Source of the DNA: Luidia sarsii
Lineage: Eukaryota; Echinodermata; Asteroidea; Paxillosida; Luidiidae
Length of the DNA stretch: 64,000 nucleotides
NCBI GenBank assembly: GCA_949987565.1
Contig: OX465104.1
Location: 12,706,300-12,770,299, forward strand
Direction: 5' to 3'
The first letter of the stretch is position 1. Every line of letters begins with the position of its first letter. The notes below the pieces were generated by a model. That model had not been told where the DNA came from, made no database searches, and saw only the letters and a list, made by a program, of their open reading frames with translations. Shown here in pieces: positions 1 to 62,229 of the stretch. The translations under genes and the position numbers were made by a program.

Positions 1-768
1 TCATTTTCCGTTTTTAGGGGGCGCATATTGCTTTGAAGATGAGAAAAGTCATTGAGCCGCTGACTAATAATAAAATAATTGAAATTATTATTACTGGCCG
101 CATGAGGGCGGACTCAGTGTTAAACAGGGAGAGCTCTGTGGTTTTAAACCAACATGGCGGACGCTCTGAAGAATCCTCGTGCGTTTTCATCTTCGAGAAG
201 AATCTTCATTTTCCCCCAAATAGTCGACGCGAAGGCTTAAGAATGCTACTCACCATTAACAGTAAGTTTCATAGGTGTTTGCCATGATATAAAACCATTC
301 CATTAACTATATAGGAGAATAGAATGAGAATTTTCGTAATTCGGACAACACATGGTACCCTGTTTACAAAGGTGACACAACAAAGGGAAAGAAGGCTTTC
401 ATTCAAAAGCACATGGTTGGACCTAGTCCGAGTAACTTGGACTCGACAAGTCACCCTTTTTTATCGAATTTTGAAATTTTGAGATTCGGGTGACTGTGTG
501 TAGGGTCCAAGGATCATGGCTATGCTGCATCGTGTATAATCACTGTAATGTCATCTTTAAAAAATACCTCCGACCGAAATCCCCAGATTTCCCCCCCAAA
601 ACACCCATGAAACCGTCCCACGCACCCATTGTGGATTCAGTGAGAATTACAGATTCCAATACTGGTCATTTTGTTTTTTTCACGTTTGGGAAAAGGGAGA
701 AAATTCCCCTCAGTTGACCGAGAATGAGTCGACGAGCCGAGTTGGGGTGGCCACCTTCAATTTGAATA
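1..768. other. Outer end of left arm, no gene seen
   Basis: Positions 1 to about 420 pair with 61560-62003. From about 430 to 768 no partner is visible in the right arm. Only short open frames occur, without recognisable domains. An AATAATT-rich palindromic stretch lies at 66-93. Confidence 0.5.
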
Positions 769-1100
769 CCCCTAGAACTGTGGGGTTCTATGTCATCCGC
801 TGCTCTCCCGACCGGAACCATACAGATAACTATGCTTTTTTCCCTTTGGCTTCTGTGTAACATTCACTAGTAGTAGTACTGTGGCATAGGGCTCAGCAGA
901 TTCAGCATAACTCATGAAATACTGCTTCATTTGGCACAAGATTTCTAGCAAATGTGGTTTACATACCGAGGACCTGTGTGCAACTGTCCATGTGGCGAAA
1001 ATGTGTCGATGACCCCCCCAAAAAATTGGCAAAAACCTCCCAGTTCGGTCGCATGATTCAAACGGCAGCGTCGCAACTGGCAGTCTGGTCCCCTGTGGTA
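769..1100 (+). mobile_element. Hairpin-family element, single copy in the left arm
   Basis: It begins with the inverted motif CCCCTAGAACTGTGGGG and ends near CTGGCAGTCTGGTCCCC. The same sequence occurs twice, head to head, at 60387-61055, and a degenerate start occurs at 1805-1865. No coding capacity was recognised. It is probably a non-autonomous transposon, and its target duplication was not identified. Confidence 0.6.
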
Positions 1101-1140
1101 TGGTATAGCGGCTAGCTGCGAAGACGGAACGATTTTGCAA

Positions 1141-2160
1141 AAATAATGCATTATTTTCAACTTCCGATATCTTTCTACAATTCTAGTAAATACATTTCTT
1201 ATGCGGAGTGCGTACTTCGGTTGACCGCGAAACTCGAAACATCGGTGGTACAAATGTAGTAATTAAACATTAGTTTATTGTTAGAAAACAACTGTAAGAA
1301 CTGGTGGAAGTCTACTAATCATTGTGCACCTGCTCAGTGCACACACACTGGATCGGACAGCAGTCTCGCACCACGATAAACAATTAGCATCAACGTAAAC
1401 GTAAGCATGCGCAAATCACGGGGACGAGTACGATCCTAAAAGCCGTTTTACTTTTTAGATTTGTTCGGCAAATGCCTTAAATTTCTGACACAAAACATAT
1501 GTATTTTCATGTGAAAAAACCCCCCAAAAAACCAAGGTTGTACATGATTATAACTCCAGATTTCTTGGCACATTCATACAATCAAATTCTGCAATCGAAT
1601 AATTATTCGCATTCGGTAAATAATATTCAATGATCGATCAAATATTTGATTATTTGGCACCCCTAAATGTACCACCTCTGCGTTATGCAATAGGCAATGG
1701 ATCACGTGTTTCTACATTTCAAAAGTTCATGCGGCCTGTGTTTTTTCATACACACCCTGTTCCACCAATCCTGCCTAACAGCCTGATACACATGTACGGT
1801 ACATGGACCCCCAGAACTGTGGGGTCCTCCATCTGCTGCTCTCCCTACAAACCCCACATAACCATGCATTTTTTCCAACTTTTGCTACTCATAAGGTAAG
1901 GGTATTACCGGTATTAAAACTAAAACAATAACTATTGTCTTCATAACAATAGGTGGTCTATTACAGACTTTTTTCCACCCTTTTACAGTGAGGTAATTTC
2001 CGGTATTAGAACTAAAAATCTTGCCAAATTGAATAGTGTTGATTACTGCAAACTAGTTGAAGTTGAACACAACATTGCGAACAACTTAACAAAAAATCTC
2101 TACATAATATACTGTACTCTGGGCTAGTGTTATAGCTAGGGTATTTTTAGTGGTGGTTCA
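1141..2160. other. Left-arm DNA with little match to the right arm
   Basis: Positions 1150-1345 resemble 51640-51830 inside the right-only transposon, including CTTCCGATATCT and GAAGTCTACTAATCATTG. Positions 1345-1800 have no partner that I can see. Pairing resumes near 1850 against about 60380. No gene was recognised. Confidence 0.45.
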
Positions 2161-2384
2161 AATTTCACCAACAAGAAGTCGTTCTCGTGAACGGAGCCTC
2201 GTGATTAGTGGCTGCGGTCAAAATGATGACAACAATACTTGTATTACACGTACTGTTGTAGATACCAATTAAATTAACTTTACTACAAGTTTTGTTGTTA
2301 ATCTTGTTCTGTGAACAACAAAACTTGAAGATAATGTACATGTACATGTTTGAATTGAATGTGTGTGTACTCGGTACGTATGCA

Positions 2385-2895
2385 TTATGCAATGATTAGT
2401 AGTCTTCCACCAGCCAACAATGAAAGTAGCGTATTTTAGTTATGACCGATTTCCCTTCACGATGTTAGCGAGGTTGGCAAGTCTAGGTGTGGTTTCCGCC
2501 TCTAGGGAAAGCCATTTAGTGACACTACAGTAGGGCCGAAACCAGCCTACGCGCTGCACATGTATGACTCATGACTCAACACGTCTTTGCACACACTGTA
2601 TACTGCACAGTGCACATGCACAGCGGCCGCATGGCTGCATACACGTACACTGCACTAATCAAGCCTGATCAGAACTTCCAGAACAGAAGTATTAGCGAGA
2701 CGTTTACGCTACAAAAAAGTTCAATTTATTTTACTACTGAAACCAAACATGGATCAATTGGGATAATAATGGGGTGAAAATAGTGCCGGTCGGAAGCATT
2801 GTTTTTCACCGGGAGTGGTTGACAGAAATTATCCGTGCTGGTCGGCCCAGTGCACCGCCGACCAACGTAGCTATAACACTGCTGTGGGTCTGTAG
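2385..2895. repeat. Dispersed repeat family A, copy 1 (about 450-500 bp)
   Basis: Hallmarks are GGTGTGGTTTCCGCCTCTAG, TAGGGCCGAAACCAGCCTAC, the CGGCCGCATGG block and GTTTTTCACCGGGAGTGGTT. The same blocks in the same order occur at 59330-59830 (mirror copy) and at 51052-51485 within the right-only TIR element. A shorter version occurs at 5325-5545 with its mirror at 56870-57083. Its presence inside a transposon suggests that it is part of a mobile-element family. Confidence 0.75.
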
Positions 2896-4481
2896 TTGTA
2901 GGTATCAAAAAGTGCCTTTGTGCAAGATGGTGAAATTGTATGACGATGCAAAGGCTTCAGAATGGGGAAAAGTTAACTGAAAAGCTGTAAGAATGCACAG
3001 TAAGGCTGAGTCAATTCGAATAAGTAACTATTCAAATATTCGGTCTTCAATTTGAACCGAAATTTGAATATTCGATCGTAATAACCGGCACTGAATGACA
3101 AGGCCATTTTTATCTACACATTTTTCTTAGGGGGGGTGGTGGCCTCAACGCCAAAAATCAAGTTGGAATGAAGGGCACCAAGTCTGCAAGGCCTGTGTGG
3201 TAGAAATACATATAAAGTACATTGGGTTGCAACTTTCCAACAAAGATCATTTTGCGCTGCTGATGATGAGCAGCATGCAGTCAGCCGCCCTGAAAGAGAT
3301 GGATTAGTGGGATTGTACTTGTAGTAATAAGTCTTGAACAAATCAGCCCAGAACATTGGTTCATATATGTTGTTGTATTTTTGATTAAGTCGAACTGACA
3401 AGGAATAACATATTCTTACCGGTACATATATTCCATTAAGATTTAGGACAATTTTGCCGATTGAATCAAACATTTTGATACCGGCTTTCGTTCACTTCAT
3501 GGCAGTGATCTTGATCGACAATTCCGTCTGGTGCATGCAACATAGCATTTATGCATATAGGCCGTGGCACGCACGCCGAGTGAACACATGTTGTGCTGAT
3601 GTTCATGACAGCAGTAGACATGTCCTGACCCCCGCCTTGGTCTGCGCCTATTGCTCCATTTCGTTTACCGAATTGCAGGAATGAACATGTCCGTACATTG
3701 TATTTGCGTTCACGCACAGACTGGTAAAAAGTTTAGCTATGCAGTATGCATGTGATTACAGGATACATTTTTATTAGATAAGGATCATAAGGTGCTGCTC
3801 AAGACACAATGCATGTGACTCGAACAGTAAAGCATCTACGTTGCGCATGTTGCTATTTTCGCTGTGTGCATGCTCAGGGCCAAATGCTGCAGACCAAAAT
3901 GTTGCCTAATTCAAATCCTGCTTGAGCTACCTGAGTTATTTTTATCAGGCACCGAGCAAAGCACTGAGCACTCGGTGTTTATCACGTCAAGTAAGGGCAA
4001 AACCTCTTTGAATTACATTCTCCTCGACGCAAACATCATGTTATATCCAAAATGTTGCCTACATAGGATGTAAGATTTGTTTTCTAAATGGCCGACTGCA
4101 TAAAACAGTGCCTAAATAGCGTAAGAGTTTTCTTCTGATTGGCTGACTGGGGAAATGTAGCCTTGAGACAAGGCATTTGTGACAAAAAGAACGTAAAATC
4201 TGCATTGACGAATGGCTTGTCAAAAAGCTGCTGACCATTTGAGTCATGTCATAACCTACCCAGTTTCTCAGCCAGCTATTCATTGACTGAACTCTTTCCT
4301 TCTAATTGGTAAAATGGCCAACTTGTCACTCGCCAACATTACAAAATTGGAAGTTTTATCAAGTTTACATTCAGGATTTTAGATAAAGGGTTAGAAAATA
4401 GAGTCAAAGGTCACTCATAGATATAAGATGAGGTCACAGCTGTTGTCGGATACTCGACACTGACGTAGTATCTGTTAACTG
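2896..4481. other. No gene seen; shared by both arms
   Basis: This stretch pairs with about 57730-59300. It has several short open frames, none of them family-like. Open frames on one arm are broken on the other, which argues against coding. No tandem repeat or transposon end was recognised. Confidence 0.45.
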
Positions 4482-4778
4482 AAAGGGGAATGAAACCCAG
4501 AGAAAAATGTTGGCTTATCTGAAAAACAACCTACAATTACCTACCGGTAGGTGAGTAGCACATAAAGAGGTTCATAAAGAGGGAAAAATTGTGGAATTCA
4601 TTGGACAAATTTGCGTTCCCGCACCCCGCCATCTTTTCGAAGGGCCCACCAATCATTGCTGGGGGTGTGACATCACTCTTTATGAAACTCGTAGGTGAGT
4701 AGCACATAGGTAATTGTAGGTTGTTTTTAACACCCAATCAGATAAGCCAACATTTTTCTCTGGGTTTCATTCCCCTTT
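4482..4778. mobile_element. 297-bp MITE-like hairpin element with about 60-bp TIRs
   Basis: The left terminus starts with AAAGGGGAATGAAACCCAGA, and the right terminus is its reverse complement, ending TTTCATTCCCCTTT. Pairing runs inward for about 60 bases to TACAATTACC. The mirror site in the right arm (about 57671-57729) keeps one terminus only. There is no coding capacity. Confidence 0.8.
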
Positions 4779-5682
4779 AAAATACAAAACTATAAATCTT
4801 TTCCCGCTAGTCTCAACTTATATTCATCTGAACTACATGTACTATTTCACTTACATGTAGTTTACTAGTAATACGATAATTTAAAGTAAACTTATTATTC
4901 AAAGTTTTGCAAACTGAGACCATTGCCGAAAACATTTCACAATCCTTTGGGAACTGTCTGCAGCTGCCCATTGACGACTATAGGCTTGTGCATACTTTCA
5001 AGCTGTAGCCAATAAATTTGGTTGCAGCCTCAGTCGATCAAATGTTCGTACATGAGGCATACCCTATTCCATAGCATTTAATATAACGGATCGAGACGAT
5101 GCTACATGTAGTATCAGACTTGGCAACCTTTGGGATAACAAAACTGAAAGTCGAAAAGTTGTGTTTTTTAGATAATTTTTTTTTTTTTTAAAGATGATAA
5201 TTCAACAGTTTAATGTTGCTGCAGTAAGCACTATTACTAGTTCAAAATAAATCAATTCAAAATTGCCTTGAATCTGAGTACATGTACAGCACGCGTAAAC
5301 CACACCCCCCCCCCCCCCCGATTTTAGTTATGACCAATTTCCCTTCGCGACGTTATGAGGTTGGCAAGTCTAGGTGTGGTTTCCGCCTCTAGGTAAAGCC
5401 ATAGCGACACTACAGGACCAGTAGGGCCGAAACCAGCCTACACGCTGCAATGTAACATGACTCAACATGTCCTTGCACACACTGTATACTGCACAGTGCA
5501 CATACACAGCGGCCGCATGGCTGTATGTATGCGTACGATAATATATGCTGCGCTACTCATACTGGTAATGGTATCATGTTATGCCAAGCGTAAAGCTATG
5601 ATCCGCGTAACTAGAAACAATCACTGAATTTATACTCAAAACTTACGGACTTGGATACTTTTTAACTGGTAATTACAGCATT
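4779..5682. other. No gene; poly-C tract and short family A copy
   Basis: A homopolymer C run lies at about 5303-5320, with its G-run mirror at about 57087-57101. A partial family A copy spans 5325-5545. The rest pairs with the right arm without recognisable content. Confidence 0.5.
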
Positions 5683-5693
5683 ATTTTACATGT

Positions 5694-6064
5694 TCTCAAC
5701 CACATGGTCTCAACATCCAGGAGGGTAATGACTAACACCATGCAGCTTTCTGATAATCCGTCTTTTGTGTTCACTCCTTCACACTTTTCTCTTTGATCTT
5801 TCCCCCTCTTCTCACTAATCCCTACCCTACTCCTTGCCCTTCTCTTTGATCTCACCCTACCAGCTTTACTCTTTGCCCTTTGTTTCTCATCCGTGTCCTA
5901 TTCACTCTCTTCCCCCTTCCTTCATGTAGATGTATCTGTGTTGTCCTTGTCACTCTACCTTTTAGAAAGGTCCTGCTAGGATCAAAATGTCAGGCCCACT
6001 AAATTTTAAGATTTGCATTTTGGTAATTTTAGTCAGTAAGCAGTTTGCAACATTTTTGTATATC
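5694..6064 (+). mobile_element. Left-only insertion of a Penelope-type 3-prime tail
   Basis: The 371-bp insert is flanked by the perfect 11-bp duplication ATTTTACATGT at 5683-5693 and 6065-6075. The right arm has the empty site, with a near-match to that word once near 56711-56721. The insert has a pyrimidine-rich first part. It ends with GAAAGGTCCTGCTAGGATC, a degenerate GAAACGTC-like stretch, and GCAACATTTTTGTATATC. The same tail occurs at about 24180-24295 and in its mirror. The tail style, with a GAAACGTC motif near the end, is like Penelope elements; the family assignment is inference. Confidence 0.75.
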
Positions 6065-6286
6065 ATTTTACATGTCGTTAAAAATATGTGGAAGGAATTA
6101 GGCAATTTTAAATCAAAAAGTTGGAAAATGTGTGGTGGTCGGAAAAAGAGAAAATACCACCAGTTGTGGTCGGGGGAATCTCGAGTGCTGGGCGGGTTTT
6201 CCAGCACTGCCCACTGTGGTCAGAACCCTGTCCATCAATAACCTGCATTTTGGACGTCATAAATCTTGCTGACACGTCCACATTAA

Positions 6287-6612
6287 AACCCTAACCCTGC
6301 TGACTCCAACAGAAGCCAACAAATTTTGGGGCCTGTTGTCCTCTGTTGTCCTCTGTTGGGTTCAAACTGTGTTGAGGATTGTTGGGGTCAGTATGGTTGT
6401 CTAGCCTGGCAGCCACACAATGAAGATAGCCCAAAAAATCTATAGAAAAGCCCAAAAACAAAGGGCCTAAAGGATTTTGTTGGGCCTAACATTGTATTCA
6501 AAGTTACTGCAATATTACCATCATTGCAGGACCCTGCTGAACCCAACAGTATCCACTGTTGGGTACTGTTGGGATCAGCAGGCTTCACACTTTCATGCTT
6601 GTGAGGGGGATG
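6287..6612. mobile_element. Left-only 326-bp element with TTAA target duplication
   Basis: TTAA occurs at 6283-6286 and 6613-6616. The right arm (near 56510) has a single TTAA at the empty site. Inverted segments CTGCTGACTCCAACAG and CTGTTGGGATCAGCAG lie near the two ends. A TTAA duplication is characteristic of piggyBac-type transposition, and the short length implies a non-autonomous derivative. No transposase is present. Confidence 0.75.
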
Positions 6613-6710
6613 TTAATCCAGCCATCAAAGCTTGCAGTGTAGTTACTGGCACTGCAGTGTCCATTTCGAAGCTTGCTTTCACAGAGACCATTCAGGCTCA
6701 TACATGTATA

Positions 6711-6908
6711 CATAGCTGTCAACCATTCCTATTTTGGAGGAATCATTCCTCTCTTTTTGGTAAAAATGTAGCACTTTTTACAAGCTCAAACAGATTCCGA
6801 TTTTTGGCTTGGAAACACACATGTATTCCTATGTAGTTTGCTCTGTAATTCCTCTTTTTTTAGCAAAGTATTCCGTCTTTCTATTAATAAGATAGGTTGG
6901 CAACTATG
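6711..6908. mobile_element. Short TIR element, CATAGCTGNCAACC family, copy 1
   Basis: The termini are CATAGCTGTCAACC and GGTTGGCAACTATG. The interior has TTCCTATTTTG, runs of T and TGTAGTTTGCTCTGT. The same structure lies at 18225-18408, 43066-43275 and 56211-56411. It is non-coding and MITE-like. Confidence 0.85.
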
Positions 6909-7059
6909 ATCATGTATATTTATAGTTTTGCTCCATGTTCCCATCTGTTGCCATTGAAAACTTTTTTCAGCGTTAGCAATGTCATTAGATACATATATAC
7001 ATGTACAAAATTTCCTCCAGTTTACATTTTCTATACTTTTATGTTTTTGTTTGTTGTAG

Positions 7060-7940
7060 TAAGCCAATCTGCCAGCCATGATCCAATCATCTAGCCATCC
7101 AATCAACATATCAAGCATCATCAAACCATCCAGTTGGCCAGCTATCCAGCCAACTTGCCAGCCAGTAACCCATTTAACATAGCCCACAAGTCAACCAGCC
7201 ATCCAATCAACCAGCTATCCAGCTACCCAGTCAGCCAGCTATCCAGCCACAGCCACCCTGTCAGCCAGCTATCCAGCCAACTTGCCAGCCAGTGACTCAT
7301 TAGCTATCCAGCCACCCAGTCAGCCAGCTATCCAGCCACCCAGTCAGCTATCCAGCCAACTTGCCAGCCAGTGCCCCTTCAACCAGCCAGCGAGTCAACC
7401 AGTCATCAAATCAACCATCTATCCAGCCACCCAGTCAGCTATCCAGCCAACTTGCCAGCCAGTGACCCATTAGCTATCCAGCCACCCAGTCAACCAGCTA
7501 TCCAGCCATCCAGTCAGCTATCCAGCCAACATGCCAGCCAGTGACCCATTCAACCAGCCAGCGAATCAACAGTCATCAAATCAATCAGCTATCCAGCCAC
7601 CCAGTCAGCCAGCTATCCAGCCAACTTGCCAGCCAGTGACTCATTAGCTATCCAGTCAGCCAGCTATCCAGCCACCCAGTCAGCCAGCTATCCAGTCACC
7701 CAGTCAGCCAGCTATCTAGCCAACTTGCCAGCCAGTGACTCTTTAGCTACCCAGCCACCCAGTCAGCAAGCTATCCAGCCAACTTGCCAGCTAGAAGTAG
7801 TGACCCACTCAACCAGCCAGCGAGTCAACCAGCTATCAAATCAACCAGCTATGCAGCCACCTAGTCAGTCAGCTAGCAATCCACAGTCATCCAGTCAACA
7901 AGTTATCTCGTCAATTAGTCACCCATCCAGTCATCCGGTG
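7060..7940 (+). repeat. Minisatellite of CAGCCAGCTATCCAGCCACC-type units
   Basis: About 880 bp of degenerate tandem units of roughly 20 bp, with recurring longer blocks that include TTGCCAGCCAGTGACCCATT. Two forward frames stay open for 63 and 109 codons and read as Pro/Gln/Ser-rich peptide. The second ends right after the possible splice donor CAG|GTAAAT at about 7950. It could be a low-complexity exon upstream of the exon-like modules at 8464 and 9079, but repeat-driven openness is just as likely. Confidence 0.85.
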
Positions 7941-8463
7941 TTTTGCTTCAGGTAAATATTTTGATTTCATACCTTGTACATGGATAAACATACATCATAA
8001 ACTTACAGGTTTATATTCTTTGCAAACTGGACGAAACTCATGGTGCTATTGTAGACATATGCTTTGCTGACATTTCTGTCAATATAGAAAATTAATATGC
8101 CAACATGTTCAGATATTGCAATGGAAAGTTATATCAAAACGATGAAGAAAAAAGAATGAAAATACTAATGTCTATAAACAAGCTAATATACATCTATAGG
8201 TCTTCTTTGAAATCTTAGCATCAAAATGATTTGCAAGCATTTCTGTTTGGCAAAAGTGTGATCATTGGTCAATTTCATCAAACTCATCATTGCTTACGGC
8301 CAATCGCAAGACAATGGGCAATGCAGACTTATGATGGATTATCCTTCGCAAGTTGAGTTATGACACAAAAGGGTTTGTGAAATCCACTCCTGGTCACATA
8401 AATCATTGGTGGCATATGGATACATGTTGTAACATGTTCTGTTGTATTCTTTTTGTGTTGCAG

Positions 8464-8623
8464 GTCTAGTCCAGCCTTGGTACAGTCACCCTACGATGTG
8501 AACTCCTGTCCCTCTGAGTTTGACTCCAAGCATCACCTTTGCCATCAGCAATTCAGGGCTACCCATTATGTGATGTGACTGCCATCTGCGATGTGCCTCA
8601 TATCACCTGAAGAACCCCAAGAA
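8464..8623 (+). pseudogene. Exon-like module, upstream copy (broken)
   Basis: A 160-bp segment is bounded by a pyrimidine-rich TTGTGTTGCAG acceptor and a GAA|GTAAGTA donor. One frame reads DVNSCPSEFDSKHHLC, close to the downstream copy at 9079-9220. A TGA interrupts that frame after about 38 codons, near an 18-bp difference, so this copy is not a usable exon. The intron-like flanks are duplicated as well, with a period of about 615 bp. I do not recognise the protein. The Cys and His spacing is kept between copies, which argues for former coding function. Confidence 0.5.
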
Positions 8624-9078
8624 GTAAGTACCATCTTCATTTCCTTTGCAATTGGGATTTAGAAGACATTATTTCAGGAAGACCTGCACATGACTGGATG
8701 AGGGTTTCTGTCCCCTGTCTGCATGTATGCCCATGTCCCTGTTTCCCCCTTTCAGCATCTTTGGTCATATCATTTCTTTCGTCTTAGTGAGCAGAATGCC
8801 ACAAAGATGACAGTTTAAGTGTTGTAATCAATTCTGTAACACTGGCAAAAGAGTGACCAGTGGGCAATTTCATCAAACCATTGTCGCTTACGGCCAATCA
8901 CAAGACAATGGGCTATGCACAGAAACAGTCTGTCAAAAACGTACGATGGATTATCCACCGTAAGTTGATTTACAATGTATCATAAGGCTTTGTGAAATCT
9001 ACCTCTGGTCAGGTAAATCATGGGTGGTATATGGATGCATGTTGTAACATGTTGTATTGTGTTGTTTTCTTGTTGCAG

Positions 9079-9220
9079 GTCTAATCCAGCCTTGGCAATA
9101 TCACTCTTCGATGTGAACTCCTGTCCCTCTGAGATCGACTCCAAACATCACCTTTGCCGTCTGCAATTCACGGCTACCTATTATGCGATGCACCTTATTT
9201 CACTTGAAGAACCCCAAGAA
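9079..9220 (+). CDS. Exon-like module, downstream copy (unknown protein fragment)
   Basis: A 142-bp segment lies between the acceptor TTTTCTTGTTGCAG and the donor GAA|GTAAGTAT. It is open throughout, reading SNPALAISLFDVNSCPSEID, then SKHHLCRLQF and ending in EEPQE. It is preserved in the right arm at 53805-53945 with few amino acid changes. No family was recognised. It could be one exon of a host gene captured with this region, or part of a mobile element. Splice signals are seen in the sequence; splicing itself is inferred. Confidence 0.45.
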
Positions 9221-10139
9221 GTAAGTATCAACTTTTCAAAGCCTTTTTTTTCCAGAAAGACCAGCAGCCAATTTCATGAAACATTAGTTTATGGCTTAAC
9301 TCCACTTATGCCATATCTTATTGCGTAAATTTAGCAGTAACTTTATGACGGATTTCACGAAAATAACACATAATCGGGAGAGGGCGGGCGGAAGTCTGGA
9401 GCTTACGTCATGTCATTAGGTAGCGTAAGTCATTGCTACACATTTTAAATATGGTGTTGATGATATGCTGTTAGTGCAGCATGAACATTGAAGAACACCT
9501 GGCCGAGAGATTGTATCGCGACAGAGCAAATTATTTGGATACTTTCAACGACAGAGAAATTTGAGAGGGTCCTATCGATTTTCCTGTGAGGGGATCATTT
9601 GTATTGTTGAAGATAAAATTGCAAGAGATTTTTAGTGTTAGACTCGGGTAATATCCTGTTTTTTAAATTAAGGAAATAAACAAAGAAATGAAACGAAATT
9701 GAATTAAGATTCTACCGAATTTATCACTAACAATGAAGGCCTTATGTGAGATTGCACCATTCACCGGAATATATCGTCATGGTTGAGAGACTCCATTGTT
9801 TAAACAAATGAATTCCCCATAAAACGCCAGAGCCCTCAGCTCCAAAAAGGGATGAGATGGATCAAACCTAATTGGATATGGTACACTGGATGGGTGTATC
9901 TAAGTCCTTCAGTGTTAGTGATAAACTTGGTAGAATCTTAATTAAGCTGCATTTCATTTCATTTATTTGTTGAATTGTTTAATTCTATCTTGTTATCACA
10001 TAACACTTTGGCCTTACGTGAGACATTAAGAGCCAGCTGACAGGCAAGAACGATCGAGTACATACACAGTGATCATCAAGCTCCATCAACAATTTATTGC
10101 TTAACTGAGAACTACGCACTCTGTGCGGTATCTAAAACC

Positions 10140-10834
10140 GTCTTAGTAATGTTCAACTTGGCAAAGGTTGAACAGTTTGTCCACCCTGCAGTACGTACCT
10201 GTAGGATACAATCTAATGACATTTCGTTTTGAAAGGCTGCACTGCAAGCTGCCGATCTAGTACTGTGCGCTTTGAACGTATCCGTATCGATACCTAGCCT
10301 GCTGCTTTCAAAACAATCTTAATCCATCTGGATAAGGTTTGCATCCCCACTTCTTTATGAGGGACCACATAACTTTGAAAAAGCCTGCGTTTCTTTCCCC
10401 AACAGAACGTGTTTTTGACAGATACTCTTTGAGTAAACTTACAACACAGAGCAACTTATCAAACGGGTAGTGGCCTATAACGACATCTATGTAGGGTTTC
10501 CCAGCCTTACAGGTCTTATTTAGTTGGCTTGTCAACTATAAAAAGTAACTCCAGTCGCTGTAAGTGTAACTTGAACATAGTCTAAATTTAACAGAGACAG
10601 TGTTTGGCAACCTTGTCCAGACTCAAGGGTGAAAAGGACAGCATTTTTCATTGCAATGGCTTTCAGTGGCAGATTGTCATTCGGACCCAACCTTTTAAGG
10701 TACGTCAAAACTACTGACACATCCCGCGTGTATGTATATCTTGGTAGTGTGGGACATAAGTTAAACACGCCAATCATAAACCTCTTGATGAGAGGATGTG
10801 CACCCACTGTCAAGCCTCCTACAGTGGGTAACAC
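10140..10834 (-). pseudogene. DIRS tyrosine recombinase, catalytically dead (left)
   Basis: Reverse-strand frames read PTVGGLTVGAHPLIKRFMIG, then FNLCPTLPRYTYTRDVSVVL and LKRLGPNDNLPLKAIAMKNA, the N-terminal SAM-like region of DIRS recombinases. The first catalytic Arg region reads SGQGCQTLSLL, where the family has SGQRCQTL, so the Arg is lost. The HxxR box remains as HSTRS in a third frame. The terminal Tyr region, usually FAKFYNK-like, is further changed to FAKLN. At least two frame breaks separate the parts. The intact enzyme would insert circular DNA intermediates without duplicating the target. Confidence 0.88.
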
Positions 10835-11559
10835 GGTAGAGATAGCACTTCATAAAGTGTTCAGACTACTGTAGTTACTGCTGCTATAAAATGCCGCAGC
10901 GAGACAGTCGATTACTGCTGGTACAGTTGCTCGAACTGGATCAGTCTCTGTCCTAATGCAGAAGAGAATCCTTTTTCATGGCACAGAGTTAGCCAGTAGT
11001 TTTCGTGGCTTTTTTATGGCATTTTCACCAGTGGTCTCCAAGGCCACATTCCTGGTGGTAAATGGCTAGAGGCAGTTTCGAACTAACTGTGAATGACAGT
11101 TACAAGGACACCATACAGTATCTCTATACTTGTAATTGAATTAGTCATCCCTCAAGGCTGGAGCTTTCCAACCTAGATATTCACTTCAGGTCTCTTAAGT
11201 GACCTGAAGATGTCCTTATCAGGTCAGAGAGGCAATTTTTTTCATGGTGAATTCACTGTAGATGCACCCTGAAATCACAGTGACTTTTTTAATAGTAAGT
11301 GTAAGCAAATCAAGTTTGTTGTATAGCAACTTCAGTAGCTTTCGGAACAATTAATATGCCGACCGCCTTGTCATAGCATATTTTGGTTAGAATTATGTCT
11401 GTTTGACAAAATGGTGGAAACGCATAGAACTTTGTGCATGACCAGCTCACCTTGAACTCATCTACATGCGTTGCACCTGGGTCTGGATGCCAGGAAATGT
11501 ACAGCTTCAGCTGAAAATTCAGCCGAGTCGCAAACAAATCTCAGTAATTTTTCCAAAAC

Positions 11560-12295: not shown

Positions 12296-12359
12296 TTCAA
12301 CAGTGCGTCTGAAAATGGCCCTGTATATGGGACTGCTAGTTCACAAGAAACCATTAGCC

Positions 12360-13200: not shown

Positions 13201-13297
13201 AGAAAATAGTGAATTGTATTCAGGATACAAGTGTGATGAGATCATGCCATTTGGCTATAGATAAAATGTGCGAGTCTGCCTGCTGTTACAGGTTGAA

Positions 13298-14430: not shown

Positions 14431-14433
14431 TTA

Positions 14434-44862: not shown

Positions 44863-44869
44863 GGTATCA

Positions 44870-49470: not shown

Positions 49471-49494
49471 GCCATTTTCAGACGCTCTGTCGAA

Positions 49495-51964: not shown

Positions 51965-52171
51965 TAGGAGACCACTGGTGAAAATGTCATAAAAAAGCCA
52001 TGAAAACTACTGGCTAACTCTGTGCCATGAAAAAGGATTCTCTTCTGCATTAGGACGGAGACTGATCCAGTTCGAGCAACTGTACCAGCAGTAATTGACT
52101 GTCTCGCTGCGGCATTTCATAGCGGCAGTAACTACAGTAGTCTGAACACTTTATGTAGTGCTATCTCTACC

Positions 52172-52907
52172 GTGTTACCCACTGTAGGAGGCTTGACAGT
52201 GGGTGCACATCCTCTAATCAAGAGGTTTATGACTGGCGTGTTTAACTTATGCCCCACACTACCAAGATATACATACACGTGGGACGTGTCAGTAGTTTTG
52301 ACGTACCTTAAAAGGTTGGGTCCGAATGACAAACTGTCACTGAAAGCTATTGCAATGAAAAATGCTGTCCTTTTCGCCCTTGTGTCTGGACAAGGTTGCC
52401 AAACACTGTCTCTGTTAAATTTAGACTATGTTCAAGTTACAGTGACTGGAGTTACTTTTTATAGTTGACAAGCCAACTAAATAAGACCTGTAAGGTTGGG
52501 AAACGCTACATAGATGTCGTTACAGGCCACTACTCCTTTAATAAGTTGCTCTGTGTTGTAAGTTTACTCAAAGAGTATCTGTCAAAAACACGTTCTGTTG
52601 GGGAAAGAAACGCATGCTTTTTCAAAGTTATGTGGTCCCTCATAAAGAAGTGGGGATGCAAACCTTATCCAAATGGATTAAGATTGTTTTGAAAGCAGCA
52701 GGTATCGATACGGATAAGCTCAAAGCGCACAGTACTAGATCGCCAGTTTGCAGTGCAGCCTTTCAAAATGAAATGTCATTAGATTGTATCATACAGGTAC
52801 GTACTGCAGGGTGGACAAACTGTTCAACCTTTGCCAAGTTTCATAACAAACCTATCCAAGTGTCGAACAATAGTAACACAGTTTTAGATACCGCAGAGAG
52901 GGCGTAG
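52172..52907 (+). pseudogene. DIRS tyrosine recombinase, catalytically dead (right)
   Basis: Three overlapping frames (from 52172, 52465 and 52614) carry PTLPRYTYTWDVSVVLTYLK, YIDVVTGHYSFNKLL, LLKEYLSKTRSVGERN and GIDTDKLKAHSTRS. The first catalytic Arg is Gly here as well (SGQGCQ), and the nucleophilic Tyr reads His in FAKFHNKPIQ. The enzyme was therefore already defective before the arms diverged, and frameshifts separate its parts. Confidence 0.88.
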
Positions 52908-53804
52908 TTCTCAGTTAAGCAATACATTACTGATGGAGCTTGATGATCACTGTGTATGTATTCGTTCTTGCCTGTTAGCTGGCTCTCAATGTCTCACGTA
53001 AGGCCAAAGTGTTATGTGATAACAAGATAGAATTAAACAATTCAACAAATAAATGAAATGAAATGCAGTTTAATTAAGATTCTACCAAGTTTATCACTAA
53101 CACTGAAGGACTTAGATACACCCATCCAGTGTACCATATCCAATTAGGTTTGATCCATCTCATCCCTTTTTGGAGCTGAGGGCTGTGGGGTTTTATGAGG
53201 ATTCATTTGTTTAAACAATGGAGTCTCTCAACCATGACGATATATTCCGGTGAATGGTGCAATCTCACATAAGGCCTTCATTGTTAGTGATAAATTTGGT
53301 AGAATCTTAATTCAATTTTGTTTCATTTCTTTGTTTATTTCCTTAATTTAAAAAAAACAGGATATTACCCGAGTTGAACACTAAAAATCTCTTGCAATTT
53401 TATCTTCAACAATACAAATGATCCCCTCACAGGAAAATCGATAGGACCCTCTCTTATTTCTCTGTCGTTGAAAGTATCCAAATAATTTGCTCTGTCGCGA
53501 TACAATCTCTCGGCCAGGTGTTCTTCAATGTTCATGCTGCGCTAACAGCATATCATCAACACCATATTTACAATGTGTAGCAATGACTTATGCCACCTAA
53601 TGACGTGACGTAAGCTCCAGACTTCCGCCCGCTTTCTCCCGATTATGTGTTATTTTCGTGAAATCCGTCATAAAGTTACTGCTAAATTTACGCAATAAGA
53701 TATGGCATAAGTGGAGTTAAGCCATAAACTAATGTTTCGTGAAATTGACTGCTGGTCTTTCTGAAAAAAAAAGGCTTTGAAAAGTTATTTGAATAGATAC
53801 TTAC

Positions 53805-53945
53805 TTCTTGGGTTGTTCAAGTGAAATGAGGTGCATCGCAAAATGGGTAGCTGTGAATTGCGGACGGCAAAGGTGATGTTTGGAGTCGATCTCAGAGGGA
53901 CAGGAGTTCACATCGAACAGTGATATTGCCAAGGCTGGATTAGAC
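53805..53945 (-). CDS. Exon-like module, right-arm copy of 9079-9220
   Basis: Reverse-strand acceptor TTGTTGCAG and donor GTAAGTATC flank an open 141-bp segment. It encodes DVNSCPSEIDSKHHLCRPQF, then a tail ending LEQPK. It is one base shorter than the left copy near the donor, which would change the phase of the junction. The product is unknown. Confidence 0.42.
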
Positions 53946-54399
53946 CTGCAACAAGAAAACAACCAATACAACATGTTACAACATGCATCCATATACCACC
54001 CATGATTAACCTGACCAGAGGAAGATTTCACAAAGCCTTATGATACATTGTAAATCAACTTACGGTGGATAATCCATCATAAGTTTGTGACAGACTGTTT
54101 CTGTGCATAGCCCATTGTCTTGCAATTGGCCGTAAGCGACAATGGTTTGATGAAATTGCCCACTGGTCACTCTTTTGCCAGTGTTACAGAATTGATTACA
54201 ACACTTAAACTGTCATCTTTGTGGCATTCTGCTCACCAAGACGAAAGAAATGATATGACCAAAGATGCTGAAAGGGGGAAAAAGGGGCATGGGCATACAT
54301 GCAGACAGGGGACAGAAACCCTCATCCAGTCATGTGCAGGTCTTCCTGAAATAATGTCTTCTAAATCCCAATTGCAAAGGAGATGAAGATTGTACTTAC

Positions 54400-54559
54400 T
54401 TCTTGGGGTTCTTCAGGTGATATAAGGCACATCGCAGATGGCAGTCACATCACATAATGGGTAGCCCTGAATTGCTGATGTCAAAGGTGTTGCTTGGAGT
54501 CAAACTCAAAGGGACAGGAGTTCACATCGTAGGGTGACTATACCAGGGCTGGATTAGAC
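54400..54559 (-). pseudogene. Exon-like module, right-arm copy of 8464-8623
   Basis: The same 160-bp broken module lies between GTAAGTACA and TGTTGCAG on the reverse strand. Its frame is interrupted as in the left arm, so the break predates the separation of the arms. Confidence 0.45.
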
Positions 54560-55101
54560 CTGCAACACAAAAAGAATACAACAGAACATGTTACAACATG
54601 TATCCATATGCCACCAATGATTTATGTGACCAGGAGTGGATTTCACAAACTCTTTTGTGTCATAACTCAAGTTGCGAAGGATAATCCATCATAAGTCTGC
54701 ATTGCCCATTGTCTTGCGATTGGCCGTAAGCAATGATGAGTTTGATGAAATTGACCAATGATCACACTTTTGCCAAAACAGAAATGCTTGCAACTCATTT
54801 TGATGCTAAGATTTCAAAGAAGACCTATGTATATTAGCTGGTTTATAGACATTAGTATTTCCATTCATTTTTCTTCTTCGTTTTGATAAAACTTTCCATT
54901 GGAATATCTGACCATTTTTGTTGACATGTTGGCATATTAATTTTCTACATTGACAGAAATGTGAACAAGAGCACCATGAGTTTCATCCAATCGGAAAAGA
55001 ATATAAACCTGTAAGTTTATGATGTATGTTTATCCATGTACAAGGTATGAAATCAAAATATCTACATTGTACATGTAGTCCAATTCACCTGAAGCAAAAC
55101 A

Positions 55102-56040
55102 CCGGATGACTGGATGGGTGACTAATTGATGGGATAACTTGTTGACTGGATGACTGTGGATTGCTAGCTGACTGACTAGGTGGCTGGATGCTGGTTGATT
55201 TGATAGCTGGTTGACTCGCTGGCTGGTTGAATGGGTCACTACTTGTAGCTGGCAAGTTGGCTGGATAGCTGGCTGACTGGGTGGCTGGATAGCTAATGAG
55301 TCACTGGCTGGCAAGTTGGCTGGATAGCTGGCTGACTGGGTGGCTGGATAGCTGGCTGACTGGGTGGCTGGATAGCTGGTTGATTTTATGACTGTTGACT
55401 CGCTGGTTGGTTGAATGGGTCACTGGCTCGCATGTTGGCTGGATAACTGACTGGATGGCTGGATAGCTGGTCAACTGGGTGGCTGGATAGCTAATGAGTC
55501 ACTGGCTGGCAAGTTGGCTGGGTAGCTGACTGGGTGGCTGGATAGATGGTTGATTTGATGACTGGTTGACTCACTGGCTGGTTGAATTGGTCACTGGCTG
55601 GCATGGCGGCTGGATAGCTGACTGGATGGCTGGATAGCTGGTCAACTGGGTGGCTGGATAGCTGGTCAACTGGGTGGCTGGATAGCTAATGAGTCACTGG
55701 CTGGCAAGTTGGCTGGATAGCTGACTGGGTGGCTGGATAGATGGTTGATTTGGTGACTGGTTGACTCGCTGGCTGGTTGAATCGGTCACTGGCTGGCAAG
55801 TTGGCTGGATAGCTGACTGGGTGGCTGGATAGCTGGTTGATATGATGACTGGTTGACTCGTTGGATGACTAGGTAGCTGGATAGCCGGTTGATTGGATGG
55901 CTGGTTGACTCGTGGGCTATGTTGAATGGGTTACTGGCTTGCAAGTTGGCTGGATAGCTGGCCAACTGGATGGTTTGATGATGCTTGATATGTTGATTGG
56001 ATGGCTAGATGATTGGATCATGGCTGGCAGATTGGCTTAC
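55102..56040 (-). repeat. Minisatellite, right-arm copy
   Basis: This is the mirror of 7060-7940, read as GGTGGCTGGATAGCTGGCTG-type units. It is slightly longer and arranged differently, so unit number and order have changed between the arms. Confidence 0.85.
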
Positions 56041-56210
56041 TACAACAAACAAAAACATAGAGTATAGAGAATGATTTTAATAAAAGAAACCTGGAGAAAA
56101 TTTTGTACATACAATAACATACACATATGTATTTAATGTTGCTACTGCTGAAAATAGTTTTCCAATGGCAGCAGATGGGAACGTGGATCCAAACTATAAA
56201 AATACATGAT

Positions 56211-56411
56211 CATAGCTGCCAACCTATCTTATTAATAGAAATAAGGAATACTTTGCTAAAAAAAAAGAGGAATCACAGAGCAAACTACATAAGAATACAT
56301 GTGCATTTCCAAGCCAAAAATCGGAATCTGTTAAGAGCTTGTAAAAAGTGCTACATTTGAAAAAACAAAAGAGGAATGATTCCTCCAAAATAGGAATGGT
56401 TGACAGCTATG
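56211..56411. mobile_element. Short TIR element, CATAGCTGCCAACC family, copy 4 (mirror of copy 1)
   Basis: The left terminus is CATAGCTGCCAACC and the right terminus is GGTTGACAGCTATG. It mirrors 6711-6908. Confidence 0.85.
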
Positions 56412-56869
56412 TATACATGTATGAGCCTGAATGGTCTCTGTGAAAGCAAGCTTCGAAATGGACACTGCAGTGCCAGTGACTACACTGAAAGCTTTGATGC
56501 ATGGATTAATGTGGACGTGTCAGCAAGACTTATGACGTCCAAATGCAGCTTATTGACGGACAGGGTTCTGACCACGGTGGTCAGTGCTGGAAAACCCTCC
56601 CAGCACTCGAGATTCCCCCGTCCACAACTGGCGGTATTTTCTCTTTTTCCGACCACCACACATTTTCCAACTTTTATTTAAAATTGCCTAATTCCTTCCA
56701 CATATTTTTAAAAACATGCAAAATGCTGTAATTACCAGTAAAGAAGTATCCAAGTCCGTAAGTTTTGAGCATAAATTCATTGATTGTATCTAGTTACACG
56801 GATCATAGCTTTACGCTTGGCATAACATTACATGATACCATTACCAGTATGAGTAGCGCAGCATATTAT

Positions 56870-57083
56870 CGTACGCATATACAGCCATGCGGCCGCTGTG
56901 CATGTGCACTGTGCAGTATACAGTGTGTGCAAGGACTTGTTGAGTCATGTTACATTGCAGCGTGTAGGCTGGTTTCGGCCCTACTGGTCCTTTAGTGTTG
57001 CTATGGCTTTACCTAGAGGCGGAAACCACACCTAGACTTGCCAACCTCGCTAACGTCGCGAAGGGAAATTGGTCATAACTCAA
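56870..57083. repeat. Family A repeat, short version (right)
   Basis: Mirror of 5325-5545, with CATGCGGCCGCTGTGCATG and GTAGGCTGGTTTCGGCCCTA, ending next to the G-run. Confidence 0.75.
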
Positions 57084-57670
57084 ATCGGGGGGGGGGGGGG
57101 GTGGTGGTTTACGCGCACTGTACATGTACTCAGATTCAAGGCAATATTGAATTGATTTATTTTGAACTACCCGGTAGTAATAGTACTTACTGCAGCAACA
57201 TTAAACTGTTGAATTATCATCTTTTCAACAAAATACAATCATCTAAAAATCACAACTTTTCAACTTTCAGAATACAGTTTTCTTATCCCAAAGGTTGGCA
57301 AGTCTGATACTAGCATGGTCTCGCTCCATTGTATTAAACGCTATAGAATAGGGTATACCTCATGTACGAACATTTGATTGACTGAAGCTGCAACCAAATT
57401 TATTGGCTACAGCTTGAAAGTACGCACAAGCCTATATATGTCGTCAATGAGCAGCTGCAGCCTGTTCCCAAAGGATTGTGTGTTACTTTTAACCGCAGCA
57501 AATGTTTCCGGCAATGGTCTGTTTGCAAAACTTAATAATAAGTTTACTTCAAATTATCGTATTACTAGTAAACTACATGTAAGTGAAGTAGTACTAGTAG
57601 TTTAGATGAATAAGTTGAGACTAGAGGGAAAAGATTTAAAGTTTTGTAAAAATTGAAAGTTTTATTAAGT

Positions 57671-57729
57671 GTAATTGTAGGTTGTTTTTCAGATAAACCA
57701 ACATTTTTCTCTGGGTTTCATTCCCCTTT
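57671..57729. mobile_element. Solo terminus of the 297-bp hairpin element
   Basis: This right-arm partner of 4482-4778 contains a single terminal repeat and lacks the middle and the other end. It fits deletion of most of the element, as expected for a hairpin lost during replication. Confidence 0.7.
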
Positions 57730-59329
57730 AAGGGAACAGATACTACGTCAGTGTCGAGTATCCGACAACAGCTGTGACCTCATCTTATATCTATGAGTGA
57801 CCTTTGACTCTATTTTCTAACCCTTTATCTAAAATCCTGAATGTAAACTTAATAAAACTTTCAATTTTGTAATGTTGGAGAGTGACAAGTTGGCCATTTT
57901 ACCAATTAGAAGGAAAGAGTTCAGTCAATGAATAGCTTGCTGAGATACTGGCTAGGTTATGACATGACTCAAATGGTCAGCAGCTTTTTGACTAGCCTTT
58001 CATCAATGCAGATTTTATGTTCTTTTTGTCACAAATGCCTTGTCTCATTTCCCCGAGTTTCCCCAGTCAGCCAGTCAGAAGAAAAATCTGACGCGCTATT
58101 TAGGCACTGTTTTACGCAGTTGGCCAATTAGAAAACACATCTTACGTCCTATGTAGGCAACATTTTGGATATAACATGATGTTTGCATCGAGGAGAATGT
58201 AATTCAAAGAGGTTTTGCCCTTACTTGACGTGATAAACACTGAGTGCTCAGTGCTTTGCCCGATGCCTGATAAAAATAATTCAGGTAGCTCAAGCAGGAT
58301 TTGAATTAGGCAAGATTTTGGTCTGCAGCATTTGGCCCTGAGCACACAGCGAAAATAGCAACATGCGCAACGTAGATGCTTTACCGTTCATGTCACATGC
58401 GTTTGTGTCTTGAGGAGCACCTTATGATCCTTATCTAATAAAAATGCATCCTGTAATCACATGCATAGATAAACTTGTTACCAGGCTGTGCATGAACGAA
58501 AATACAATGTACGGACATGTTCATTCCTGCAATTCGGTAAACGAAATGGAGCAAGAGGCGCAGACCAAGGCGGGGGTCAGGACAAGTCTACTGCTGTCAT
58601 GAACATCAGCACAACATGTGTGCGTGCGTGCCGCGGCCTATATGCATAAATGCTAAGTTGCATGCACCAGACGGAATTGTCGATCAAGATCGCTGCCATG
58701 GAGTGAACGAAAGTCGGTATCAAAATGTTTGATTCGATCGGCAAAATTGTCCTAAATCTTAATGGAATATATGTACCGGTAAAAATATGTTATTCTTTGT
58801 CATTTCGACTTAATCAAAAATAAAACAACACATATGAACCAATGTTCTGGGCTGATTTGATCAAGACTTATTACTACAAGTACAATCCCACTAATCCAAC
58901 TCTTTCAGGGCGGCTGATTGCATGCTGCTCATCATCAGCAGCGCAAAACGATCTTTGTTGGAAAGTTGCAACCCAATGTACTTTATATGTATTTCTACCA
59001 CACAGGCCTTGCCGACTTGGTGCCCTTCATTCCAACTTGATTTTTGGCGTTGAGGCCACCACCCCCCCTAAGAAAAATGTGTAGATAAAAATGGCCTTGT
59101 CATTCAGTGCCGGTTATTACGATCAAATATTCAAATTTCTGTTCAAATTGAAGACCGAATATTTGAATAGTTAATTATTGGAGCCTTAGTGTGCATTCTT
59201 ACAGCTTTTCAGTTAACTTTTCCCCATTCTGAAATCTTAAGCTTTTGCATCGTCATACAATTTCACCATCTTGCACAAAGGCACTTTTTGATACCTACAA
59301 CTACAGACCCAGAGCAGTGTTATACAGTG

Positions 59330-59830
59330 TAGCTACGTTGGTCGGCGGTGGACGGGGCCGACCAGCACGGGTAATTTCCGTCAACCACTCCTGGTGAAAA
59401 ACAATGCTTCCGACCGGCACTATTTTCACCCCATTATTATCCCAATCCATCTTTGGTTTCAGTAGTAAAATAAATTGAACTTTTTTGTAGCGTAAACATC
59501 TCGCTAATACTTCTGTTCTGGAAGTTCTGATCAGGCTTGATTAGTGCAGTGTACGTGTACGCAGCCATGCGGCCGCTGTGCATGTGCACTGTGCAGTATA
59601 CAGTGTGTGCAAAGACGTGTTGAGTCATGAGTCATACATGTGCAGCGCGTAGGCTGGTTTCGGCCCTACTGTAGTGTCACTAAATGGCTTTCCCTAGAGG
59701 CGGAAACCACACCTAGATTTGCCAACCTCGCTAACATCGTGAAGGGAAATCGGCCATAACTAAAATACGCTACTTTCATTGTTGGCTGGTGGAAGTCTAC
59801 TAATCATTGCATAATGCATACGTACCGAGT
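59330..59830. repeat. Family A repeat, long version (right)
   Basis: Mirror of 2385-2895, with GGTCGGCGGTGGACGGGGCC, GGCGGAAACCACACCTAG and GAAGTCTACTAATCATTGC. Confidence 0.75.
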
Positions 59831-60386
59831 ACACACACATTCAATTCAAACATGTACATTATCTTCAAGTTTTGTTGTTCACTTTACTTGTTCAGTTAAT
59901 GTTGTACAGAACACGATAAACAACAAAACTTGTAGTAAAGTTAATTCTATTGGTATCTACAACAGTACATGTAATACAAGTATTGTTGTCATCATTTTGA
60001 CCGCAGCCACTAATCACGAGGCTCCATTCACGAGAACGACTTCTTGTTGGTGAAATTTGAACCACCACTAAAAATACCCTAGCTATAACACTGACCCAGA
60101 GTATAGTATATTAAGTAGAGATTTTTTGTTGAGTTGTTCGCAATGTTGTGTTCAACTTCAACTAGTTTGCAGTTATCAACATGTAAACTACCGTATTCGA
60201 TTTGGCAAGATTTTAGTTCTAATACCGGAAATTACCTCACTGTAAAAGGGTGGAAAAAAGTCTGTAATAGACCACATATTGTTATGAAGACAATAGTTAT
60301 TGTTTTAGTTTTAATACCGGTAATACCCTCACCTTATATGAGTAGCAAAAGTTGGAAAAAATGCATGGTTATGTGGGGTTTGTATA

Positions 60387-61055
60387 CCCCCAGAACTGTG
60401 GGGTTCTACGTCGTCCGCTGCTCTCCCGACCGGAACCCCACAGATAACTAGGCTTTTTTCCCATAGGCTTCTGTGTAACGTTCACTAATGCTGTGGCATA
60501 GGGATCAGCAGGTTCAGCATAACTCTTAAAATACTGCTTCATTTGGCCCAAGATTTCTAGCAAATGTGGTTTACATACCACGCACCTGTGTGCAACTGTC
60601 CATTTGGCAAAAATGTGTTGATTTCAAAAAAAAATGGGCGAAAACCTCCCGGTTCGGTTGCAACATTCAAACGGCAGCTCCGTAACTGGCAGTCTCGTCC
60701 CTGTAGTACAGTATAGCGCCTTGCTGTGAAGACGTACAGGGGACCAGACTGCCAGTTGCGGCGCTGCCATTTGGATCTTGCGACCAAACCGGGAGGTTTT
60801 CGCCCATTTTTTTTTGGAAATCGACACATTTTCGCCAAATGGACAGTTGCACACAGGTGCGTGGTATGTAAACCACATTTGCTAGAAATCTTGGGCAAAA
60901 TGAAGCAGTATTTTATGAGTTATGCTGAACCTGCTGATCCCTATGCCACAGCATTAGTGAACGTTACACAGAAGCCTATGGGAAAAAAGCCTAGTTATCT
61001 GTGGGGTTCCGGTCGGGAGAGCAGCGGACGACGTAGAACCCCACAGTTCTGGGGG
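60387..61055. repeat. Secondary palindrome of hairpin-family elements near the right end
   Basis: Arms of about 323 bp (60387-60709 and 60734-61055) are inverted copies of the sequence found once at 769-1100. The outer ends are CCCCCAGAACTGTGGGG and its complement, and a spacer of about 24 bp lies between the arms. It was created by a second copy inserting head to head, or by local inverted duplication in this arm only. Confidence 0.88.
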
Positions 61056-61555
61056 TAGGGTTTGTAGCGAGAGCAGCAGATGCAGATGAATCGTTGGACG
61101 CTATTTCGGGCACTTTTAAGGCCTTCGGTTGAGAATTACTGTTTTTGTATATTAAACGCGGTGGGACACTAGTGCTACAGATAATCTCAAAACTCGTTTA
61201 AATTAAGGGGAGCTCCTATAGCGGCCCAGTAAGTGGGACAAGCTAATTATGTGCCTACAGCCAGAGAATTTGCCATGTTTATTGTGCCTGTACTGAGCTT
61301 GAGGCGGCGCTGTCTGTGAATGTGGCGTTCGCATTTGCGCAGTTGCAGTGCGCCGTAACTATAGAAAATGGAAATTACGTTACGGCTGCCGTAGCAATAG
61401 CCACTGCGTATTATTAATTATATTTATAATTACTGGCCTCCTTCCTTCCTCCCTCAATGCTAGCACTAGAACTAAGTAGAACTTACTAGTAATTACCGTC
61501 ATCACTCGGTCAACACCCACTACGTATTACTGACATTGGTCCAACCTCTGTACAT
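61056..61555. other. Right-arm DNA with no left-arm partner
   Basis: About 500 bp, including CTTGAGGCGGCGCTGTCTGT and a GC-richer stretch at 61300-61380, have no match in 430-1850. No gene was recognised. Confidence 0.45.
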
Positions 61556-62229
61556 GCATGGTCCAACCACGTGCTATTGAATGATAAGCCTTCTTTCCCT
61601 TTGTTGTGTCACCTTTGTAAACAGGGTGCCATGTGTTGTCCGAATTACGAAAATTATCATCCTATTCTCTAATATATGGAATGGTTTTATATCATGGCAA
61701 ACACCTATGAAACTTACTGTTAATGGTGAGTATCATTCTTAAGCCTTCGCGTCGACTATTTGGGGGAAAATGAAGATTCTTCTCGAAGATGAAAACGCAC
61801 GAGGATTCTTCAGAGCGTCCGCCATGTTGGTTTAAAACCACAGAGCTCTCCCTGTTTAACACTGACTGAGACCGCCCTCATGCGGCCAGTAATAATAATT
61901 TCAATTATTTCATTATTACTATTAGTCAGCGGCTCAAAAACTTTAACGCATGACTTTTCTCATCTTCAAAGCAATATGCGCCCCCTATAAACGGAAAATG
62001 AGGGCAGAATGATTGAAAAATGCTGAATGTTTCAATTTAAGGCTAAACTGTAAAAAAAAAAATGGGGCGGTTCAACAACATTTATTATTTTGCAAAGCAA
62101 CACGATAATATTCGTTTTATTCATTTTTTTATGGAACAAAGAACTGTATTATTTACATAAAATATTGCTCTTGTCTGCGTTTTTTTTCTCTGAAACGAAG
62201 TGATTATGTAGTTCGTTCCACTTCCACCC

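Follow-up and report, generated by a model that had tools for sequence, protein, structure and literature searches.

The window analysed here, a stretch of 64,000 nucleotides from the starfish Luidia sarsii (assembly GCA_949987565.1, contig OX465104.1, positions 12706300-12770299), carries a palindrome with two arms of about 31 kb. Comparison with the whole genome (471 Mb, 227 contigs) indicates that it belongs to a family of giant, apparently non-coding palindromes found at many loci, with 10 close copies on the contig of the window, hereafter C4. An array of short motifs lies at the axis. Tentatively, and with slightly more doubt than belief, we read the family as a chromatin-architecture element that carries this array and may be kept by conversion between its arms.

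Geometry of the palindrome

The window was compared with itself, and the matches were chained into an alignment of the two arms. Negative coordinates and those above 62003 extend the window numbering into flanking DNA. The main features are as follows.

1..30831, minus strand: left arm, from self-comparison and chained alignment; outer end at about -731, beyond the window
30832..30868, no strand: non-mirrored 37-bp spacer at the axis, from self-comparison
30869..62003, plus strand: right arm, from self-comparison and chained alignment; mirrored part continues to about 62786
20554..22783, no strand: 44-bp tandem array of the left arm, 50.6 copies
38907..40963, no strand: 44-bp tandem array of the right arm, 46.7 copies
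13293..13763, no strand: 54-bp tandem array of the left arm, 8.5 copies
45975..48439, no strand: 54-bp tandem array of the right arm, 45.5 copies

One inverted match (22171-39521, 95% identity) crosses the axis, and more inverted blocks follow toward both ends. The chained alignment joins positions 1-30831 on the left to 30869-62001 on the right in 15 collinear blocks of 88-95% identity, which cover 83% of either arm, with gaps of up to 2.6 kb between blocks. A chance origin of this mirroring is excluded. An earlier note, made from the letters of the window, had described two inverted arms of about 31 kb around a 37-bp spacer, with landmarks in the same order, and self-comparison and chained alignment bear out both statements, the order being unbroken across the 15 blocks. 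The continuous anti-diagonal that it also described keeps its order throughout, but is interrupted by indels, by arrays differing in copy number and by the gaps between blocks. The left arm does reach the window edge, as had been noted, and in fact the mirrored part, with flanks included, extends from about -731 to 62786. The arms differ by 3.9% substitutions (490 transitions and 459 transversions over 24,460 aligned positions) and by 165 indels; both were counted in 12 of the 15 blocks, three small blocks within the 44-bp array or next to it being omitted.

A conserved motif array at the axis

The motif GAGGGCGC occurs 20 times in the palindrome of the window, compared with 0.45 expected from 20 first-order simulations. 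The copy at 11.889 Mb also holds 20, and about 137 kb of flanks and arrays hold five. Of the 20 in the palindrome of the window, twelve cluster around the axis, none more than about 360 bp from it, and form an array within 720 bp. In a motif-enrichment comparison of the palindrome with background, CCANYAGAGGGCGC was found four times versus none.

30490..31206, no strand: array at the axis, with twelve GAGGGCGC motifs oriented <<><>><<><>> and spaced by 45-81 bp; ten of them intact in the old copy described below
30689..30777, plus strand: 89-bp motif-pair unit left of the centre; exact pattern found genome-wide only at palindrome axes
30922..31010, plus strand: 89-bp motif-pair unit right of the centre; exact pattern found genome-wide only at palindrome axes

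The order <<><>><<><>> is common to the window and to the palindromes at 11.889, 12.617 and 12.114 Mb. The number of axis motifs is 11 at 9.960 Mb, and 15 at both 10.754 and 11.404 Mb. In 100 of 101 motif sites from eight loci a C stands at position -5, and the majority context, CA(A/C)TAGAGGGCGCT, is close to what we take to be the CTCF consensus.

An old copy of the palindrome, at C4:17.267 Mb, is 68% identical to the centre of the window. Ten of its twelve motifs are intact, versus 21 of the 552 other 8-mers of the centre (4%), and, counted per base, 86 of 96 motif positions are conserved versus 348 of 644 in the rest. The spacings of the outer five motifs on the left are similar, at 75, 77, 47 and 81 bp in the window versus 75, 78, 37 and 77 bp in the old copy. 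The comparison with this one old copy shows axis motifs conserved far above their surroundings, the mark of purifying selection.

A genome-wide search with the 89-bp unit gave 48 matches (23 forward and 25 reverse, at 26 places), all of them at the axes of ten C4 palindromes, and no match in the reversed control of the whole genome. With 48 of 48 exact matches at palindrome axes, and no clear similarity in the flanks, a dispersed miniature inverted-repeat transposable element at the axis was rejected. The number of exact matches to the unit varies, with five instead of two at the 22.953-Mb palindrome (C4:22953316-22954112) and three each at the 23.061-, 11.404- and 9.694-Mb palindromes.

A dispersed family of palindromes

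The centre of the palindrome (29400-32300) matches both strands at many places in the genome. A genome search with 1.6 kb of right-arm sequence (34900-36500) located this piece at at least 24 loci on 8 contigs, at least 14 of them on C4 and at least 10 across C11, C12, C13, C14, C17, C19 and C22; these counts are lower bounds, since 40 of 155 candidate matches were scored. The piece stands on both sides at 16 of the 24 loci found, the left copy always on the minus strand and the right copy on the plus strand (outward), 7-13 kb apart; at the other eight it stands on one side only. It forms a core that is 94-97% identical to the window in ten C4 palindromes and 78-87% identical in older copies, which are less similar to the window in the axis region (mostly 67-78%).

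34900..36500, plus strand: conserved core of the right arm, 78-87% identity in older copies; GAGGGCGC motifs at 35603, 35641 and 35860
25172..26773, minus strand: conserved core of the left arm; motifs at 25801, 26018 and 26056

The earlier note had called palindromes of this size rare in most genomes. Within this genome the palindrome does not stand alone, being one of at least 24 loci. Among the papers listed by a literature search on starfish or giant palindromes, in a collection with few subscription papers, none describes such a family. One copy, at C14:8995040-9006251, looks rearranged, with arm-core, centre-like and outer-arm-like matches inside 12 kb.

Probable duplication of loci and signs of arm recombination

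The comparison of arms covered 3.8 kb in seven C4 palindromes (fourteen arms), namely the window (W) and the loci at 11.889, 12.617, 12.114, 9.960, 10.754 and 11.404 Mb. Identity between the two arms of a locus is 0.961 in the window and, in the order just given, 0.959, 0.960, 0.967, 0.935, 0.964 and 0.938 elsewhere. Identity between loci is mostly 0.93-0.96, with the exception of 10754_L and 11404_L (0.983). A tree of the first 700 bp from the axis places W_R with p11889_L (81/82), W_L with p11889_R (90/93), and 10754_L with 11404_L (100/100). Because arms of different loci are joined in this innermost stretch, two pairs of C4 copies were probably duplicated as whole palindromes. The tree of positions 700-3780 joins W_R to W_L (98/98), pairs the 12.617- and 12.114-Mb arms within their loci (100/100 each), and places 10754_R with 10754_L and 11404_L (100/100). 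By identity over the same interval, both arms are mutually closest at three of the seven loci (the window, 12.617 and 12.114 Mb).

Site patterns were examined between the window and the 11.889-Mb palindrome. Cross-arm sites number 12 versus 5 within-locus sites in the inner kilobase, and 5 versus 44 from there to 8.2 kb (Fisher p = 5e-6 for the contrast; same-side sites, 8 overall). Along whole arms, the counts of within-locus, cross-arm and same-side sites are 3/13/1 at 0-1 kb, 45/4/4 at 1-8 kb, 25/17/11 at 8-16 kb (an interval that holds the 44-bp array, where the alignment is uncertain), 33/8/3 at 16-24 kb and 9/5/19 beyond 24 kb. Between 1 and 24 kb from the axis, the site patterns thus favour within-locus similarity, which we infer to be the mark of arm-to-arm recombination. 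The arms of the old copy are 94% identical to each other (127 mismatches in about 3,030 columns of a self-alignment in which every arm pair is counted twice), in agreement with the prediction of concerted evolution.

In the history that we propose, the palindrome would have been duplicated as a palindrome, with later conversion between its arms from about 1 to about 24 kb away from the axis. A crossover between the arms perhaps inverted the core with respect to the outer arms, and the innermost kilobase and the outermost arms would escape conversion. Conversion, if it is the cause, appears to be weak, given 3.9% substitutions between the arms. Upkeep by gene conversion, as the earlier note had proposed, is thus supported in part: the site patterns at the window locus, the tree beyond 700 bp and the 94%-identical arms of the old copy speak for it; the arm divergence would make it weak, and arms are mutually closest at only three of seven C4 loci.

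Content of the arms and genomic setting

Six-frame Pfam scans, which covered 30869-45870 and 48501-63502 on the right side, gave no family at E ≤ 0.01, with no positive control for the stop-masked translations. Six single open reading frames of the arms gave weak matches below the Pfam cut-offs, or none, at E ≤ 5. Protein-coding arms were rejected on the empty six-frame scans of the right-arm parts. Nor did the arm parts scanned contain a Pfam transposase domain; autonomous partner elements elsewhere were not sought. Broken reading frames at 43911-52465 (plus strand) and 11879-17608 (minus strand) look by eye like a DIRS-type retrotransposon, which Pfam did not confirm. Rfam gave only two matches above threshold, both of tRNA type and one in each arm. 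These sequences, at 12897-12977 (plus) and 48757-48837 (minus), were not called by ARAGORN and perhaps belong to a tRNA-derived repeat.

To the left, a pantetheinase-type reading frame lies 14-16 kb from the window. Its nearest proteins come from sea stars (Patiria miniata and Acanthaster planci, 59% identity each; Asterias amurensis, 54%), with 56% for one unnamed protein, so that this single gene puts the host among the sea stars. An exon of DNAAF5 lies at -2996 to -2019, 1.3-2.3 kb outside the left edge. The palindrome therefore adjoins ordinary genes on this side.

62786..64000, plus strand: outer right arm, with no mirrored partner on the left side of the window; common to both arms of the 11.889-Mb palindrome

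This outer right arm runs into a GA-rich 46-bp array that starts at 64514, beyond the window. It is similar to the 46-bp GA-rich array found near both ends of the 11.889-Mb palindrome, and no such array was among those listed on the left side of the window. The ends of the palindromes lie in minisatellites or are unequal. Among the matches listed at the window's locus, none that is inverted and at least 400 bp long lies beyond -731 and 62786; among the matches listed in a more sensitive flank-to-flank comparison, one is inverted (487 bp, 73% identity) and does not fall on the mirror line. At the 11.889-Mb palindrome, no inverted match of at least 700 bp was found outside about 19.8-81.0 kb of the 100-kb stretch examined. 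Between the 12.617-Mb palindrome and that of the window lies an array of about 38 kb (C4:12646319-12684446), composed mainly of 249-bp (3 x 83) GA-rich units.

Weighing the explanations

An assembly artefact, in which two haplotypes of one locus were joined tail to tail at a hairpin, is very improbable. The 3.9% substitutions, the indels and the differences in array copy number do resemble two alleles of a variable marine animal, and divergence within loci over 3.8 kb is alike, at 3.3-4.1% in five of seven loci (6.2-6.5% in the other two). However, haplotypes joined in this way would continue the mirror symmetry past the arms, and it ends on both sides, the one inverted flank match listed being off the mirror line; the left side carries pantetheinase and DNAAF5 sequence. 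The same geometry recurs in the 68%-identical copy and in copies on other contigs, an asymmetry of the axis is common to different loci in inverse orientation, and the 264 kb joined contain no N. The misjoin was rejected on the end of symmetry and the recurrence of the geometry. A locus for hairpin RNA, where read-through transcription would yield long double-stranded RNA to be cut into small RNAs, is a somewhat better candidate but still improbable. The axis folds as a near-perfect 441-nt hairpin (-315 kcal/mol, z -38), the arm core contains a second stable hairpin (listed below), and the arm parts scanned hold no protein domain. Any palindrome folds likewise, however, and the only microRNA match was below threshold (30.5 bits versus a cut-off of 97). 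Both the outer motif units and those of the old copy pair only weakly in their interior, yet the 8-mers stay intact. RNA hairpin units as the conserved feature are weakened by this poor interior pairing; conservation seems to act on the motifs and not on a hairpin RNA, which favours a protein over an RNA.

35550..35700, plus strand: stable hairpin with a motif-bearing stem inside the conserved core of the arm, 151 nt, -76.6 kcal/mol, z -10

A neutral or selfish repeat is a more serious alternative, although we consider it unlikely. The family would then be a segmental duplication or a fold-back element of very large size, spreading without host function, its palindromy passively kept by recombination. 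The many copies, 14 of the 24 loci found being on C4, and their star-like divergence are consistent with this, as are the broken transposon-like reading frames in the arms (seen by eye and unconfirmed by Pfam) and the minisatellite arrays at the outer ends, where seen. Against it stand the empty six-frame Pfam scans of the right-arm parts, and neither the selective conservation of the axis motifs nor the higher identity of the 1.6-kb core is expected of neutral DNA.

The chromatin-architecture reading would account for the motifs as follows. The array would bind a zinc-finger protein, most likely starfish CTCF, each palindrome would act as a dense, orientation-symmetric insulator- or boundary-like element, and arm conversion would keep the mirrored context of the array intact. 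Conversion as the cause, the binding of a protein, its identity as CTCF and the effect on chromatin are all deduced from sequence. In a study of echinoderm genomes (PMC13317027), echinoderm CTCF is described as having lost two of eleven zinc fingers, and sea-star domain boundaries as enriched in CTCF motifs without an orientation rule. A symmetric array would suit such orientation-free use, and an architectural element is therefore favoured. Going further, and with as much reserve as for the selfish repeat, the family might be a dedicated class of giant non-coding palindromes with a conserved symmetric CTCF-type axis array, in which arms and conversion are part of the function: a DXZ4-like organiser in palindromic form, concentrated on one chromosome.

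Several observations weigh against the favoured reading. The conservation of the motifs rests on one old copy, in which the innermost pair is turned (<<><><><><>>). The twelve sites amount to only about 5-6 independent ones, because the arms may convert each other, and the alignment of window and old copy may be anchored by the motifs themselves, although order and spacing are independent of it. The strict form of the CTCF consensus, CCASYAGRGGGCGC, fits only one site in the palindrome of the window. As for the arms, the 12.617- and 12.114-Mb palindromes each pair within their locus even in the innermost 700 bp, four of seven loci (11.889, 9.960, 10.754 and 11.404 Mb) lack mutually closest arms at 700-3780 bp, and the within-locus margin of the window is small there (0.968 versus 0.967 for W_R). 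Between the window and the 11.889-Mb palindrome, 408 of 494 variable sites are private to one arm, so that informative sites are few. Finally, PMC13317027 puts the enrichment at boundaries far below that in zebrafish, with none at echinoderm loop anchors.

Comparison with known systems

The best-known giant palindromes are those of sex chromosomes; there, the genes of the arms, often testis-expressed, are taken as the reason for their upkeep. To our knowledge, none of these palindromes has an axis motif array such as the starfish axis carries. The starfish family resembles the palindromes of mammalian X and Y and of plant sex chromosomes in its arms of tens of kilobases, short spacer, many copies per chromosome and signs of arm conversion. 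Unlike them, it is found at at least 24 loci on 8 contigs and shows no protein domain in the scanned part of its arms, which differ by 3.9% substitutions rather than less than 1%. An arm identity above 99% is reported for mammalian sex-chromosome palindromes (PMC8981503), and palindromic repeats are reported on a willow sex chromosome (PMC7023750). Fold-back (long inverted repeat) transposons share the inverted arms and dispersed copies, whereas the starfish arms are about 30 kb long, lack a transposase domain in the part scanned and end, where seen, in GA-rich minisatellites.

The motifs of DXZ4 repeat head to tail. In the starfish, the motifs, candidate sites by sequence only, alternate around a mirror axis, and the host is an echinoderm. 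The likeness to the CTCF-rich repeats of the mammalian X (DXZ4, FIRRE and ICCE) lies in the close packing of CTCF-like motifs within repeated DNA and in a proposed architectural role. These three are described as repeat loci that shape the mammalian X in PMC6985041 and PMC5899087, and PMC5899154 reports that a domain boundary persisted after the CTCF-rich Firre locus had been deleted. A dispersed family with no gene found in the arm parts scanned, with signs of arm recombination and a constrained axis array would separate the upkeep of palindromes from gene content. In echinoderms, where the role of CTCF is open (PMC13317027), it would also connect palindromes with chromatin architecture in a way that can be tested.

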